Assembly: GCA_026196275.1 (NCBI GenBank)
Contig: JAPHTQ010000007.1
Span: 1-42,381, forward strand
Length of the DNA: 42,381 nt
Direction of reading: 5' to 3'
Origin: Gammaproteobacteria bacterium
Lineage (GTDB): Bacteria; Pseudomonadota; Gammaproteobacteria; Thiohalomonadales; Thiohalomonadaceae
In this document: piece after piece, positions 6,312-36,809 of the stretch
How the letters are laid out: each line of letters begins with the position of its first letter
Numbering within the stretch: the stretch's first letter is position 1
Notes under the pieces: model-generated
What the model saw: the letters and a program-made list of their open reading frames with translations, nothing else
What the model was told of the DNA's origin: nothing
Databases searched by the model: none
Made by a program: the position numbers and the translations under genes

Positions 6312-6545
6312 GATGCCTCTTCTCTCTTTTCTGTGTGATGACACGCTGAAGCCTAGTCAGGACTAGTGAAGGTTGTGTTACAGCAGGATGAAGATTGGGT
6401 GAACCGTGCCGGCGCAGTGATGGCTTCTCCTCGCGCGCGGCCGCGGCCACTGTGGCGATCACCGTTTTTCGCTGACTTCGCGCTGCTGTCACGAACGGGC
6501 GAACGCGGTATCATGGCGCCCTCACAGAATCACAGCGAGGTGGAT

Positions 6546-7387: not shown

Positions 7388-8185
7388 ATGGAACTGATTC
7401 AGATTGTTTTGCTGGCCCTGGTGCAGGGGTTGACCGAGTTTTTGCCCATCTCCAGTTCGGCGCATTTGATCCTCTTCCCCGTCCTCAGCGGTTGGGCGGA
7501 TCAGGGACTGGCCTTCGATGTGGCGGTGCACGTGGGCACGCTTGTGGCGGTGGTAGGGTATTTCCGCCACGAGCTGCGGGTGATGGTGCGTGACTGGCTC
7601 GCCTCGATCCGCCAGCGCCGTCGGGTGGGCGACAGCAATCTGATGTGGGCGGTCGGTTTCGGCACCATCCCCGCCGGGCTTGGGGGGCTGTTGTTCAACG
7701 ATATTATCGAGACCGTGTTGCGCTCACCGCTGGTGATCGCCGCAACGACGGTCATCTTCGGTCTGCTGTTGTGGTGGGCGGATGCACAGGGCAAGCGCGA
7801 ACGCAGTGAGCACACCATCGGCTGGCGCGATGTGCTGGTGATCGGCCTGGCCCAGGCGCTGGCGCTGATTCCGGGCACCTCCCGCTCCGGCATCACCATG
7901 ACTGCCGGGCTGATGCTGGGCTTGAGCCGTGCCGGCGCAGCGCGTTTCTCCTTTCTGCTCTCGATACCGATCATCCTGCTTGCCGGTGGTTATAACGGGG
8001 TAAAGCTGGCGCAGTCCGGGCAGGCAGTGGAGTGGGCTGCGTTGGGACTCGGTGTGCTCTTCTCTGCCCTGAGCGCCTATCTGTGCATCCACCTCTTTCT
8101 CAAAGCGCTGGAGCGAATCGGCATGTTACCGTTTGTGATCTATCGTCTGCTGCTCGGTACGGTACTGTTCTGGATCTATCTTTGA
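7388..8185 (+). CDS. uppP: Undecaprenyl-diphosphatase UppP/BacA
   Basis: Encodes 265 residues of a multi-pass inner-membrane enzyme that dephosphorylates undecaprenyl pyrophosphate so the lipid carrier can be reused for peptidoglycan. Both active-site signatures are present: EFLPISSSAHL at residues 17-27 and PGTSRSGITM near residue 160. The stop codon shares one base with the ATG of the VanZ-like gene, indicating coupling. The start at 7388 has only a weak purine stretch upstream but gives the canonical MELIQIVLLALVQGLTEF terminus. Confidence 0.96.
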   Translation: MELIQIVLLALVQGLTEFLPISSSAHLILFPVLSGWADQGLAFDVAVHVGTLVAVVGYFRHELRVMVRDWLASIRQRRRVGDSNLMWAVGFGTIPAGLGGLLFNDIIETVLRSPLVIAATTVIFGLLLWWADAQGKRERSEHTIGWRDVLVIGLAQALALIPGTSRSGITMTAGLMLGLSRAGAARFSFLLSIPIILLAGGYNGVKLAQSGQAVEWAALGLGVLFSALSAYLCIHLFLKALERIGMLPFVIYRLLLGTVLFWIYL

Positions 8186-8562
8186 TGCGGGATTTTCGCT
8201 ACCCGAAAACCTGGTTGATTCTCGGTTGGTCGGGTATCGGCCTGCTGGTCTGGTTTTCACTGGCCAGCCTCACGCTGCATATCGATGTCGAGTATGGTGA
8301 TAAGTGGATGCACCTGCTCACCTATGCCTTGCTGATGGGGTGGTTCGTGCAGCTCTATTCTCGTTGGCCGCTGATCCTGCTGCATGCATTGCTGCTGATG
8401 CTGCTGGGGGTGATGTTAGAGTTTCTGCAAACGCAGACCGGACGCCACTTCGAGGTTGCCGACATGCTGGCAAATACTCTGGGGGTGACACTTGGAGGCA
8501 TCACGGTACTGACTCCGCTGCGCGATCGTCTGCTGTGGCTTGAACGGAAATTGTTTGTCTGA
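8185..8562 (+). CDS. VanZ-like family membrane protein
   Basis: Encodes 125 residues with four hydrophobic segments. The pattern DKWMHLLTYALLMGWF, then EFLQTQTGRHFEVADMLANTLGV, is that of VanZ-like proteins, a family named after the teicoplanin-resistance gene but mostly of unknown function. The start overlaps the uppP stop (TGATG), and the TSUP gene follows after 3 nt, so the three genes are likely co-transcribed. The longer upstream frame is inside uppP and is not used. Confidence 0.85.
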   Translation: MRDFRYPKTWLILGWSGIGLLVWFSLASLTLHIDVEYGDKWMHLLTYALLMGWFVQLYSRWPLILLHALLLMLLGVMLEFLQTQTGRHFEVADMLANTLGVTLGGITVLTPLRDRLLWLERKLFV

Positions 8563-8565
8563 ATC

Positions 8566-9300
8566 ATGCTCGAATCACTCTCATCTCTGGAACTGCTGCT
8601 GGCGGCGCTGATCATTATCACCGCCTTTTTTGTCCGTGGCATTGCCGGCTTCGGCTCGGGACTGATCGCCATTCCGCTACTGGCGCAGATGCTGCCGCTC
8701 TCGGTGGTGGTGCCGCTGGTGGGACTGCTCGACTATCTCGCCTCCACCAGTCATGGGGTGAAGCATCGCCAGGCGATCAGCTGGGGGGATATTCTGCCGC
8801 TGTTGCCGTTTACCTTCACCGGGGTACTGACGGCGCTCTATCTGTTCCATACCCTGGATGCGGAGCTGCTGCGCAAGGCGTTGGGCGGCTTTATCGTGCT
8901 CTACGCCCTCTACACCCTGCTTAGCTCCGGCCCCGGTTTTCACGGCAGCCGCTGGTGGGCGATCCCGGGCGGGGCCCTGGGGGGATTGATCGGCACCCTG
9001 TTCGGTACCGGCGGGCCGTTCTACGTGATCTACCTGCGGCTGCGCCACCTGCAGAAGAGCTCCTTCCGCGCCACGATTGCCATCGTTTTTCTTATCGACG
9101 GCGGCAGCCGCATCATCGGCTACTTCTTCTCCGGTTTTTACACCGGCGACACCATGTACCTGCTGGCCGCGGCGCTGCCGATCATGGTGATCGGTCTGTA
9201 TGTCGGCGGACATATCCACACCACGATCAGCCAGCAGAGCTTCCAGCGTGGTATCGGTCTGCTGCTGGTCGGCAGTGGCCTGGCGCTGCTGTTGCGTTAA
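8566..9300 (+). CDS. TSUP-family (TauE/SafE) membrane transporter
   Basis: Encodes 244 residues with about eight hydrophobic segments and the internally repeated glycine-rich motif of the TauE/SafE family (FVRGIAGFGSGLIAIPLL near residue 22, GGLIGTLFGTGGPFYVIY near residue 140). Members export sulfite, sulfoacetate or other organosulfur anions. In a putative sulfur oxidizer sulfite export is attractive, but the substrate cannot be assigned from sequence. The gene follows the VanZ-like gene after 3 nt and precedes ychJ by 12 nt. Confidence 0.88.
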   Translation: MLESLSSLELLLAALIIITAFFVRGIAGFGSGLIAIPLLAQMLPLSVVVPLVGLLDYLASTSHGVKHRQAISWGDILPLLPFTFTGVLTALYLFHTLDAELLRKALGGFIVLYALYTLLSSGPGFHGSRWWAIPGGALGGLIGTLFGTGGPFYVIYLRLRHLQKSSFRATIAIVFLIDGGSRIIGYFFSGFYTGDTMYLLAAALPIMVIGLYVGGHIHTTISQQSFQRGIGLLLVGSGLALLLR

Positions 9301-29410: not shown

Positions 29411-30412
29411 ATGTCGCAACGTCTGGAGCAGTTGAATCACTGGCTGAGCAACGCCGTGGGCTTGCCGGAATACCGCATCGCCCCTGCCTCCTCCGATGCC
29501 AGTTTTCGCCGCTATTTTCGCATCCGCTTTGCCGGCGAGAGCCGCATCGTGATGGATGCCCCACCGGAGAAGGAGGACAGTCGGCCCTTTGTGCGTATCG
29601 GTCGGCAACTGCGGGAGATCGGTCTCAACGTGCCGGAGATCCTGGCCGAGGATCTGGGGCAGGGTTTTTTGCTGCTCAGTGACCTGGGCGAGAGGCAGTA
29701 TCTCGATGTGCTCGATGCGCAGAACGTGGAGCGGCTCTATGGCGATGCCATGGGGGCGCTGGCCACGCTGCAGGCCTGTGGGCCCGATGCGCAGGCGCTG
29801 CCGCCCTATGACCGCGAGTTGCTGTGGCGGGAGATGGTGCTGTTCCGGGAGTGGTACCTGGAGAGACACCTGGGGCTGGTCCTCAGTGACAGTGAGCAGA
29901 GGGTGCTGGATGAGACCTTCGAGCAGCTGGTGACCAGTGCGCTGGAGCAGCCGAAGGTGAGCGTGCACCGTGACTACCATTCGCGCAACCTGATGGTCAG
30001 CGAACACAACCCCGGTATCCTCGACTTCCAGGATGCGGTGCACGGACCCATCACCTACGACCTGGTCTCTCTGCTGCGCGACTGCTATATCGCCTGGCCG
30101 CGTGAGCAGGTCGAGGAGTGGGTCAGGGGCTACCACGATATCGCGATCGATCACGGCATCCTGCGTGAGCACCAGGAGGAGCGCTTCCTGCGCTGGTTCG
30201 ATCTGATGGGGGTGCAGCGTCACCTCAAGGCGACGGGTATCTTTGCCCGTCTCAACCACCGTGACGGCAAGCCCGGCTATCTCAACGATATCCCGCGTAC
30301 CCTCGGTTATGTGGCGGAGGTGAGTGGGCGTTATCCACAGCTGCGGCCGTTTATGCACCTGCTGGAAGATAAAGGTGTTTTAGGTTACATATCGAAGCCG
30401 GCTTTTTTGTAG
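29411..30412 (+). CDS. amgK: N-acetylmuramate/N-acetylglucosamine kinase AmgK
   Basis: Encodes 333 residues of the aminoglycoside-phosphotransferase-like kinase fold. HRDYHSRNLMV (catalytic loop) and ILDFQDAVHGPITYDLVSLLRD (metal site) are typical of AmgK, which phosphorylates the anomeric hydroxyl of MurNAc during peptidoglycan recycling. The start has GAGGATAAT as ribosome binding site. The partner MurU is encoded at 31065, but a minus-strand Sel1 gene sits between them, so the pair is not contiguous here. Divergence from lptD is conserved in pseudomonads. Confidence 0.9.
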   Translation: MSQRLEQLNHWLSNAVGLPEYRIAPASSDASFRRYFRIRFAGESRIVMDAPPEKEDSRPFVRIGRQLREIGLNVPEILAEDLGQGFLLLSDLGERQYLDVLDAQNVERLYGDAMGALATLQACGPDAQALPPYDRELLWREMVLFREWYLERHLGLVLSDSEQRVLDETFEQLVTSALEQPKVSVHRDYHSRNLMVSEHNPGILDFQDAVHGPITYDLVSLLRDCYIAWPREQVEEWVRGYHDIAIDHGILREHQEERFLRWFDLMGVQRHLKATGIFARLNHRDGKPGYLNDIPRTLGYVAEVSGRYPQLRPFMHLLEDKGVLGYISKPAFL

Positions 30413-30822
30413 TACTCTTTCGCCTTCTCCTCGTCCTGCTCCACACCGTTGCCCTCCTGGTACATCATCCCCAGGGTGGTCAGGGAGCCGACCAGTCCCT
30501 GTGCCGCAGCAAGCTCAAACCACTTCATCGCCTCGCTCGGGTCCTTCTCCACCCCCTCGCCCTCAAGGTACATAAAGCCCATGCCGTGCTGCGCCATGGC
30601 GTGTCCCTTTTCGGCGGCGGCGCGCATCATCCTGACCGCCTCAGGCAGGTTTTGCGCGCCCAGCAGACCATTCTGTTGCATGATGGCGACGCGGTACTGG
30701 GCCTCGAGGTTACCCTCCTCGGCCAGAGGTGAGAGCAGCTGCATCGCGGTGCCGAAGTGCTTGCCCTCGAAGGCCGTAATGCCGCTGTTCAGGTCCATAT
30801 CATTATTGCTGATGTCATTCAC
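30385..30822 (-). CDS. Sel1-like repeat protein
   Basis: Encodes about 145 residues, mostly three Sel1/TPR-like repeats (EAQYRVAIMQQNGLLGAQNLPEA, MAQHGMGFMYLEGEGVEKDPSEA, GSLTTLGMMYQEGNGVEQDEEKA), a protein-binding solenoid with no signal peptide. A GTG at 30822 is chosen because AGGAG lies 7 nt upstream; TTG 30837 and ATG 30798 are alternatives. Its 3' end overlaps amgK by 28 nt in convergent orientation, and it splits amgK from murU. The partner protein is unknown. Confidence 0.85.
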   Translation of the reverse strand: MNDISNNDMDLNSGITAFEGKHFGTAMQLLSPLAEEGNLEAQYRVAIMQQNGLLGAQNLPEAVRMMRAAAEKGHAMAQHGMGFMYLEGEGVEKDPSEAMKWFELAAAQGLVGSLTTLGMMYQEGNGVEQDEEKAKEYYKKAGFDM

Positions 30823-30989
30823 GCTGCTGCTCCTCAATCTTGTAGGATGTCTGATGCCCGCCGGGCAATGCTACACATTCAAATGGAGGGGACGTCGGTG
30901 CTTTTCAAGGCAAGGGCCTGCCGCTGGCGGGGGGCGTCTGCTACCGGTTCGCCTGTGCGGTTGTGGTTGAGGGCCAGTTTTGCCAATAA

Positions 30990-31736
<747 letters not shown>

Positions 31737-34449: not shown

Positions 34450-34833
34450 ATGAACGACAAGCGCTATCAGGTGATCTACACAGGCAGGCTCAAGCCGGGG
34501 CTTGATGCTGATACGGTCAAGAGCAACCTCGTCCTTTTACTCGGTATCGATGAGGTGAAGGCTGCGAAGCTGCTGCAGAGTGGGCCGCTATTGCTCAAGC
34601 GTTGCAACAGCGCGGTCGAGGCGCAGGTGCTGGCGGAGAAGTTCGAGCAGGCCGGGATTCTGTGTGGCGTGCATAATGGTGTTGCCGGCAGCGACAGCAA
34701 TCCGGGTGTTGAGGCCGGTGGTGAGAGCTCCCTGGTGCGCATGCTCCGGCATGTCTCCCCTTCGAGTGGCAGCGATAGTCCATCGCTGTTCAAGCGCCTC
34801 ATCGGTGGCGACCGGAAGCACCGTCGCGCCTGA
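34450..34833 (+). CDS. Small protein with modulator-like N-terminal domain, unknown function
   Basis: Encodes 127 residues. The first about 75 (RYQVIYTGRLKPGLDADTVKSNLVLLLGIDEVKAAKLL to AEKFEQAGILCGVH) resemble a compact alpha/beta domain that I recall at the N terminus of various membrane proteins. The rest is serine/glycine-rich, low complexity and basic at the end (GGDRKHRRA). No membrane segment is seen. A GAGAG tract lies about 10 nt upstream. In the 181-nt upstream gap an imperfect TTTACC/GGTAAA palindrome occurs near 34328. Confidence 0.6.
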   Translation: MNDKRYQVIYTGRLKPGLDADTVKSNLVLLLGIDEVKAAKLLQSGPLLLKRCNSAVEAQVLAEKFEQAGILCGVHNGVAGSDSNPGVEAGGESSLVRMLRHVSPSSGSDSPSLFKRLIGGDRKHRRA

Positions 34834-35019
34834 AACCGTCCATTTTGTAGCCATGGCACCCGCCCTGTAAAATGTCATTTTGTCGGGCCTCGCCTGGGCG
34901 GGCCCAAGCTGAAGTTCCCTGAATCTTCGCCCGTCTTCCCTTTCGCGACACTCTCCTGACTCCCTCTCCTCTACTGCAGGCCAGCGTCCCATCGGGCCTG
35001 TCGAGGGGACTCTTTGCTG

Positions 35020-35059
35020 CTGTCATTAACTCTTCACTGCCGCGTCACCCCTCTGTCAT
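35020..35059 (+). promoter_or_regulatory. Tandem PhoB box (four half-sites, 11-nt spacing)
   Basis: Four 7-nt half-sites begin exactly 11 nt apart: CTGTCAT (35020), TCTTCAC (35031), GCGTCAC (35042) and CTGTCAT (35053). The PhoB consensus is direct CTGTCAT-type repeats on an 11-nt period. A weaker fifth (CTGTCGA, 34998) is also in phase. A possible -10 (CACTCT, 35070-35075) lies 10 nt after the last half-site, as in known Pho promoters, giving a start near 35082 and a short leader to the ATG at 35105. Confidence 0.72.
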
Positions 35060-35104
35060 GGAATCGAGGCACTCTGTTCTGCGTAGAGACGGGCAACCGA
35101 GTGT

Positions 35105-36298
35105 ATGAGGATGGGTAGAGAGCTTCGAATCAGTCTGGTGAGCGAGACCTGGCCGCCGGAGATCAACGGTGTGGCAATGACCCTCTCACACCTGGCCGGG
35201 CAGCTGGCCCGGCGCGGCCACCGGTTGCAACTGGTGCGACCGCTTCAGCCGCAGGAGGGCGGTCATGATCCGGCCATCATGCAGACCCTGCGCGTACGCG
35301 GCATGGCCATTCCCGGCTATCCGGAGCTGCGCCTGGGATTGCCCGCCGGACGCCTGCTGCGTCGGGCATGGCGGTTGCAGCGCCCCGATGTGATCTACGT
35401 TGCTACCGAGGGACCGTTGGGTTGGTCGGCGGTGCGGCAGGCCGCACGGCTGGGTATCCCCGTGGTCAGCGGTTTTCACACCCAGTTTCACCACTACAGC
35501 CGCTACTACCGGGTCGGCTGGTTGCAGCCACTGGTCTACCGTTACCTGCAGTCTCTGCACAACCGCACGGCCTGCACCCTGGTGCCGACCGAGACGATGC
35601 GCCGGCAGATGAGTGCCAATATCCCTGCGGTAGAGGTGTTGAGCCGCGGCATCGATACCGAACTATTTCATCCGGCCAAGCGCAGTGAGACGCTGCGCCG
35701 CGAGTGGGGCGTCGGGCCCGCAGACAAGGTCTTTCTCTATGTGGGCCGTCTGGCCAGGGAGAAAAATATCGAGCTGGCGCTGGAGACCTTTCTTACCCTG
35801 CGCCAGGGATCCCCCACGGCACGCCTGGTACTGGTGGGACATGGCCCGGACTATGCGCGCCTCTATGCTCGCCACGAAGGGATCATCTTCGCCGGCAGCC
35901 ACGTCGGCGAGAAGCTCGCGTGCCATTACGCCTCAGCGGACATCTTTCTCTTTCCCAGTATGAGTGAGACTTTCGGTAACGTGGTGCTCGAGGCGATGGC
36001 CAGCGGGCTGGGTGTAGTTGCCTTCGACGAGGCCGCAGCCGGCATCCACATCAGCCACGGTAACAACGGCATGCTCTGCCCTGTAGGGGACGGGAGTGTC
36101 TTTTTACGCCACAGCAAGACGCTGCTGGCCAATCCGCCCTACCTGCAGACGCTGCGCAAACAGGCGCGACGTGCCATGGAGGGGGTTTCCTGGGAGAGGG
36201 TGGGGGCGGAGTTCGAGCGCATCCTTCGGAGTCAGGTTGAGAACCTGGAGGTGAGAGATGAGTCAAGCGAACGTATGGCAGCGGATTTCAGCCGTTGA
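35105..36298 (+). CDS. GT-B glycosyltransferase (GT4), probable glycolipid synthase
   Basis: Encodes 397 residues. N-terminal RISLVSETWPPEINGVAMTLSHLAGQL and C-terminal VGRLAREKN plus PSMSETFGNVVLEAMASGLGV (the E-x7-E nucleotide-sugar site) define a GT4 enzyme of the type that includes diacylglycerol glycosyltransferases such as Agt, SqdX and MgtA. ATG 35105 and ATG 35111 are both possible; no strong ribosome binding site. The PhoB-type array upstream and the overlapping PAP2 gene suggest it glycosylates diacylglycerol during phosphate starvation. The acceptor is inference. Confidence 0.85.
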   Translation: MRMGRELRISLVSETWPPEINGVAMTLSHLAGQLARRGHRLQLVRPLQPQEGGHDPAIMQTLRVRGMAIPGYPELRLGLPAGRLLRRAWRLQRPDVIYVATEGPLGWSAVRQAARLGIPVVSGFHTQFHHYSRYYRVGWLQPLVYRYLQSLHNRTACTLVPTETMRRQMSANIPAVEVLSRGIDTELFHPAKRSETLRREWGVGPADKVFLYVGRLAREKNIELALETFLTLRQGSPTARLVLVGHGPDYARLYARHEGIIFAGSHVGEKLACHYASADIFLFPSMSETFGNVVLEAMASGLGVVAFDEAAAGIHISHGNNGMLCPVGDGSVFLRHSKTLLANPPYLQTLRKQARRAMEGVSWERVGAEFERILRSQVENLEVRDESSERMAADFSR

Positions 36299-36809
36299 CG
36301 GCAGGCTCTGTCTGTTGCTCAACCGCATGTCGCGCCGCCACCTGCTGGTGTTGCTGTTCCGTTTTATTTCACGCATCGGCGACGGCATATTCTGGTATGC
36401 GCTGATGGCTGTGTTGCCGTTGCTCTATGGTGAGCGCGGTCTTGTCGCTGCGGGGCTGATGGTGCTTGCCGGCCTTATCAACCTGCAGGTCTACCGCTTG
36501 TGCAAACATCGTTTCGCCCGTGAGCGGCCCTTTGTCAGCATGCCGCGGATCAACCTCGCCGGCGTACCGCTGGATCGCTACAGCTTCCCCTCCGGCCACA
36601 CACAGCATGCCGTGGGGTTCTCGGTGGTGGCGGTGGCCTTCTTCCCGCACCTGGCGATGGCGCTCTTTGTGCTGGCCGCACTGGTGGCGCTGTCGCGACC
36701 ACTGCTCGGTCTGCACTACCCCTCGGATGTGGTGCTGGGTGCGGGACTGGGCTTTGGTGTGGCGCAATTGCTGCTGGGTGTGGCAGCGCTGTCGGGATGG
36801 ATGGCGTAA
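36258..36809 (+). CDS. PAP2-family membrane phosphatase
   Basis: Encodes 183 residues with about five hydrophobic segments. The three PAP2 motifs are present: KHRFARERPF near residue 73, PSGHTQHAV near residue 110 and SRPLLGLHYPSDVVLG near residue 147. Such enzymes dephosphorylate phosphatidate, phosphatidylglycerol phosphate or undecaprenyl pyrophosphate. Its start overlaps the glycosyltransferase gene by 41 nt and has GAGGTGAG upstream, so the two are co-translated. Supplying diacylglycerol to the glycosyltransferase is a simple hypothesis. Confidence 0.9.
   Translation: MSQANVWQRISAVDGRLCLLLNRMSRRHLLVLLFRFISRIGDGIFWYALMAVLPLLYGERGLVAAGLMVLAGLINLQVYRLCKHRFARERPFVSMPRINLAGVPLDRYSFPSGHTQHAVGFSVVAVAFFPHLAMALFVLAALVALSRPLLGLHYPSDVVLGAGLGFGVAQLLLGVAALSGWMA

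Follow-up and report, generated by a model that had tools for sequence, protein, structure and literature searches.

A predicted PhoB-regulated glycosyltransferase–PAP2 operon suggests a second source of diacylglycerol for phosphate-sparing lipid remodeling in proteobacteria

The window analyzed here, a 42,381-nucleotide stretch of DNA from a gammaproteobacterial genome, contains a two-gene operon in which a GT4 glycosyltransferase is followed by an overlapping PAP2-family phosphatase, and which is preceded by an array of PhoB boxes. On balance, we favor a reading, drawn from the sequence and its comparative context, in which PhoB activates this operon at low phosphate to make phosphorus-free glycolipids, with the PAP2 phosphatase feeding the glycosyltransferase. 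Lipid remodeling is a main bacterial means of cutting the need for phosphorus, and many marine bacteria swap phospholipids for glycolipids when phosphate is scarce, usually with PlcP and Agt. In heterotrophic bacteria, the first remodeling step has been credited to PlcP, and plcP has served to chart this trait in metagenomes. Below, the glycosyltransferase of the window and its orthologues are referred to as GT-A, and a second lipid-type GT4, encoded on contig 17 in the genome of the window, as GT-B.

In the proposed mechanism, PhoB would bind to the tandem 11-nt half-sites upstream of the GT-A start codon when phosphate is scarce and turn the operon on. The PAP2 phosphatase would then dephosphorylate phosphatidate, yielding diacylglycerol and recovered phosphate, and GT-A would move a sugar from a UDP-sugar onto that diacylglycerol, as its clade and gene neighborhood suggest. 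The sugar is perhaps glucuronic acid, since GT-A is apparently a member of the Agt2 lineage (see below), and a UDP-sugar dehydrogenase, whose gene is present in the same genome, could be the source of UDP-glucuronate. A separate, Pho-boxed PlcP/GT4 divergon of this genome would provide diacylglycerol from the breakdown of existing phospholipids. The presence of the operon in addition to this divergon makes it probable that the cell has two sources of diacylglycerol, namely turnover through PlcP and diversion of new phosphatidate through PAP2.

PhoB binds CTGTCAT repeats spaced 11 nt apart. The array in the window (35020–35059, + strand) consists of the half-sites CTGTCAT, TCTTCAC, GCGTCAC and CTGTCAT, which start at 35020, 35031, 35042 and 35053, in steps of exactly 11 nt, and it precedes the start codon (ATG at 35105) by 46–85 nt. 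With a simple matrix for PhoB half-sites, built manually from the known consensus, the array reaches 31.3 bits (11.3, 3.5, 5.1 and 11.3 bits for the single half-sites, in order), compared to 18.6 bits for the runner-up within the window and 14.9 bits for the top array in 120 simulated strands. The four phased half-sites reported in the initial annotation are, thus, borne out. The fifth half-site that it had added (CTGTCGA, 34998–35004, + strand) does share the 11-nt register but is weak, at 2.5 bits, and is separated from the array by a slot (35009, ACTCTTT) that scores −11.6 bits; it therefore lies outside any continuous array and adds little. As a loose two-half-site pattern was no commoner than its reversed control (68 versus 78 matches), a lone match of this kind says little, and the case for a PhoB site rests on the four-site array and its conservation.

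The runner-up is a second, weaker array of four half-sites in the PhoB register (6366–6405, − strand), which also exceeds the simulated maximum; the genes on either side of it are both on the + strand, and no obvious gene follows it on its own strand. Just upstream of the main array is a small ORF of 127 residues (34450–34833), for which no Pfam or NCBIfam match was found. Also nearby on the same strand (29411–31736), a nucleotidyltransferase (NTP_transferase) accompanies a kinase-like ORF, and the two resemble the AmgK-MurU pair of cell-wall recycling.

Comparison of orthologous promoters indicates that the phasing of the array is conserved. Two-half-site matches that reach 10 bits or more are found upstream in 14 of 16 promoters (that of the window and those of 15 orthologues, 44–55% identical), compared to 4.8% of random stretches. 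Such matches are also present at 57% of the 79 loci from a scan of the genome collection (3.9% for random stretches) and in 60% of 45 class-wide orthologue promoters (4% for random stretches). Independently of any matrix, pairs of NN(G/T)TCA(C/T) half-sites on the coding strand of 123 GT-A-orthologue upstream regions are separated by 11, 22 and 33 nt in 43, 44 and 22 regions, respectively, versus 0–5 regions for each of the other distances between 5 and 45 nt. An in-phase pair occurs in 23 of the 45 class-wide promoters, whereas shuffling gives 0.3 on average and 3 at most. On the opposite strand, a half-site pair at 11 nt is seen in 15 of the 123 regions, which perhaps stems from divergent Pho-regulated neighbors.

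PhoB itself is encoded in the genome of the window (TIGR02154, 353 bits; cut-off 296), and its gene is itself preceded by a Pho box at −70 (16.2 bits). The conserved 11-nt phasing, together with a phoB gene that carries its own Pho box, makes PhoB control of the operon very likely as a predicted regulation, in agreement with the initial annotation, which had proposed it from the half-sites of the window. In-phase sites are rarer in genomes that lack PlcP (3 of 14) than in those that have it (20 of 31; p = 0.011). Control of the pair by PhoB is therefore less certain in the former set, where PAP2 would be the sole evident source of diacylglycerol, and the pair may be regulated differently there. 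Pho phasing is often absent from the GT-A promoters of these PlcP-less genomes (L308 of G145, L309 of G228, L310 of G379 and others).

GT-A of the window (397 residues; 35105–36298, + strand) contains the Pfam domains Glyco_transf_4 and Glycos_transf_1. Its predicted structure (pLDDT 88.7) adopts the fold known as GT-B, and the nearest solved structures are of the MshA, BshA and PimA types. The PAP2 ORF (183 residues; 36258–36809, + strand) overlaps that of GT-A by 41 nt, so that both the gene order and the overlap described previously agree with the ORFs and the Pfam assignments. In a tree of 49 glycosyltransferases, GT-A, the PlcP-adjacent Agt-type enzymes and GT-B form three supported groups. 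The GT-A clade (support 99/99) is sister to the PlcP-adjacent Agt clade (99/97), in a tree that is unrooted apart from midpoint rooting and includes no characterized sequence by name. Within that sampling, the position of GT-A next to the Agt clade favors the earlier view of a lipid-type GT4.

The gene neighborhood of GT-A in Pseudomonas provides a further indication of its lineage. In Pseudomonas seleniipraecipitans, the genes downstream of GT-A are gpx, slyD and ackA (confirmed by Pfam), and a separate glycosyltransferase of the Agt group is located beside plcP in this species (L196). In P. aeruginosa, we take PA0836 and PA0838 to be ackA and gpx, respectively. PA0837 is slyD and PA0842 is a glycosyl transferase (PMC12431658). 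The latter is Agt2, which has a Pho box and gives rise to glucuronosyl-diacylglycerol when expressed in E. coli (PMC8528852). Since the synteny of the Pseudomonas GT-A gene with gpx-slyD-ackA is in keeping with the neighborhood of PA0842, and given the clade, GT-A of the window is probably of the Agt2 lineage, with P. aeruginosa outside the sample from which this is deduced. A P. aeruginosa-specific primer pattern had no match in 398 Pseudomonadaceae genomes.

The PAP2 protein (Pfam PAP2, 6.5e-19) contains the complete set of KX6RP, PSGH and SRX5HX3D motifs (Lys83, Arg90-Pro91, PSGH at 111–114, Ser146-Arg147, His153 and Asp157), with catalytic residues that are invariant across 10 orthologues, and has the PAP2 fold, which identifies it as a member of the PAP2 superfamily. 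Its model (pLDDT 91.5) is closest to Aquifex LpxE among solved structures (Z 21.9, rmsd of 1.7 over 160 residues, 26% identity), followed by B. subtilis PgpB (Z 20.0); LpxE is also the top sequence match among solved structures. Neither its fold nor its sequence tells whether the substrate is phosphatidate, PGP, undecaprenyl pyrophosphate or lipid A 1-phosphate. This PAP2 family also occurs immediately ahead of GT-B in seven loci (G327, G141, G382, G248, G107, G295 and G242), with a Pho-box dimer of at least 10 bits ahead of PAP2 in five of them (9.9 bits in G107, none in G295), and near plcP in G072, G218 and G249. As PAP2 partners two different lipid-type glycosyltransferases as well as PlcP, it is best read as the supplier of their common acceptor, diacylglycerol, and we infer that it acts on phosphatidate. 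The parallel PAP2–GT-B module, often with Pho boxes of its own, was observed at L270, L271, L280, L285, L286, L287 and L290.

According to the initial annotation, this would be a remodeling operon without PlcP. That is true of the operon itself, from which plcP is absent, but not of the genome, where plcP is encoded on contig 17 (27627–28442), divergently from GT-B. The assignment as PlcP is based on a bimodal distribution of PlcP/LpxH scores, with a clear gap from LpxH. The plcP/GT-B intergenic region (8444–8646 of locus L031, contig 17) contains two Pho-box dimers, one oriented toward plcP (CTGTCACCGCAACGTCAC) and one toward GT-B (TTGTCATCAAAGCGTCAC), both scoring 14.9 bits. In relatives, the genes are brought together in single clusters with a shuffled arrangement, in the orders PlcP, GT-A, PAP2 (G015); GT-A, PlcP, PAP2 (G054, G324 and G389); GT-A, PlcP, PAP2, GT-B (L156); GT-A, PAP2, GT-B, PlcP (L157); and PlcP, GT-B and then GT-A (G034). 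These shuffled clusters, together with the Pho-boxed plcP/GT-B pair, suggest that the GT-PAP2 operon belongs, as one module, to a broader lipid system for phosphate starvation.

Among 370 gammaproteobacterial genomes, GT-A is present in 45, PlcP in 107 and both in 31. PlcP is, thus, found in 31 of the 45 genomes with GT-A, compared to 76 of the 325 others (odds ratio 7.3), for which the p value of 3e-9 is optimistic as the genomes are related to one another. The pairing noted in the window is conserved, with PAP2 adjoining GT-A in 39 of the 45 genomes, as judged from coordinates. The six genomes with no adjacent PAP2 all have PlcP, and in one of these (G177) GT-A is located at a contig end. 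The 14 GT-A genomes that lack PlcP all retain the adjacent PAP2, compared to 25 of the 31 with PlcP, a difference that is not significant (p = 0.16). A point against the proposed mechanism is a P. fluorescens genome that encodes GT-A but lacks both PlcP and a PAP2 next to it. Overall, the GT-PAP2 pair with Pho sites is found across many proteobacteria, in some of which PlcP, the usual enzyme of the first step, is missing.

Several other explanations of the operon need to be weighed. PlcP alone could make the diacylglycerol, with the PhoB-regulated PAP2 acting as a helper on undecaprenyl pyrophosphate or PGP, which it would dephosphorylate, or in phosphate salvage, rather than feeding GT-A. We consider this unlikely, although it is in keeping with the Pho-boxed plcP of this genome and with the presence of PlcP in all six GT-A genomes that have no adjacent PAP2. 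The best NCBIfam match of PAP2 is also to an undecaprenyl-diphosphatase, with 59 bits, far under the cut-off of 250, and E. coli PgpB is dual-function (PMC7413402). However, recycling of undecaprenyl pyrophosphate does not need the PAP2 of the window, because a BacA/UppP-like ORF (named from its sequence rather than from a database match) is already present at 7388–8185. In addition, PAP2 tracks lipid-type glycosyltransferases and PlcP, and its retention in all of the PlcP-less GT-A genomes points the same way, without significance in the comparison given above. An LpxE-like role, in which PAP2 would remove the 1-phosphate of lipid A to spare phosphate in the outer membrane and would be co-regulated with GT-A without acting in series with it, is improbable. 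The proximity to Aquifex LpxE in both fold and sequence would fit such a role, and lipid A dephosphorylation would suit the Pho regulon, but B. subtilis PgpB is nearly as close, and a lipid A enzyme would not be expected to share operons with glycerolipid-type GT4s and PlcP.

Doubts about the glycosyltransferase and the promoter carry less weight. GT-A could instead act on phosphatidylglycerol, as GpgS does, or in exopolysaccharide synthesis, and its best NCBIfam match is indeed N-acetylglucosaminyl phosphatidylglycerol synthase (NF053787). This match of 146 bits is far below the cut-off of 480, whereas true GpgS orthologues from P. fluorescens and Cobetia score 613–627 bits and are distant from GT-A in the tree; an identity with GpgS was rejected on the basis of the score and the separate branch. 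Moreover, a phosphorus-containing product makes little sense under Pho boxes, and no exopolysaccharide cluster was seen beside the pair among the ORFs of the window, so that we regard either of these activities as quite improbable. That the half-sites reflect chance or a non-PhoB element is hardly credible: the array is missing from some orthologous promoters, mainly of PlcP-less genomes, but the phasing of half-sites in multiples of 11 nt is overwhelming among the orthologues and refutes chance, and the genome of the window carries the same element in its phoB, plcP and GT-B promoters. We therefore return to the reading in which PAP2 would supply diacylglycerol to GT-A under PhoB control.

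Pho-boxed remodeling through PlcP and Agt is established (PMC4796936, PMC8528852), and plcP-agt is also described in PMC9239053. The system of the window resembles the P. aeruginosa pathway (PA3219-PA3218 and PA0842/Agt2; PMC8528852) in its PhoB boxes, its lipid GT4s and the location of PlcP elsewhere in the genome. It differs in that the Agt2-type gene shares an operon with PAP2, which the published model does not include; no PAP2 was found beside GT-A in the retrieved flanks of the Pseudomonas loci examined. In marine heterotrophs such as Phaeobacter and SAR11, phospholipids are likewise converted to glycolipids via diacylglycerol under Pho boxes, but the species studied appear to lack phosphatidate phosphatases and to obtain diacylglycerol via PlcP (PMC4796936), whereas the glycosyltransferase studied here is linked to a Pho-boxed PAP2, whether or not PlcP is present. 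The diacylglycerol for cyanobacterial glycolipids is probably derived from phosphatidate phosphatases (PMC4796936), which is the same source as proposed here, although the lineage is different and the operon of the window is Pho-boxed and includes the glycosyltransferase. The PAP2 of the window shares its fold and full set of catalytic motifs with LpxE (Aquifex) and PgpB (B. subtilis, E. coli), but is only 21–26% identical to them in structural alignments and has a different operon context.

What is already known is, thus, the Pho-boxed PlcP-Agt remodeling, and what is new here is the coupling of a Pho-boxed PAP2 to an Agt2-type glycosyltransferase. Our survey of the open-access literature found no PAP2 in Pho-regulated bacterial lipid remodeling and no Pho-boxed PAP2 tied to an Agt2-type gene, which is weak evidence of novelty with subscription papers outside its scope. 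The conserved Pho-boxed GT-PAP2 operon suggests a second source of diacylglycerol. More tentatively, it is possible that many proteobacteria possess a PhoB-controlled glycolipid route that is independent of PlcP, in which a dedicated PAP2 would divert new phosphatidate to a co-transcribed Agt2-type glycosyltransferase, operating beside PlcP in some species and replacing it in others. Such a route would run against the published view of reliance on PlcP for diacylglycerol. If the second source is real, surveys based on plcP only would miss some remodeling bacteria, as 14 of the 45 genomes with GT-A have no plcP.
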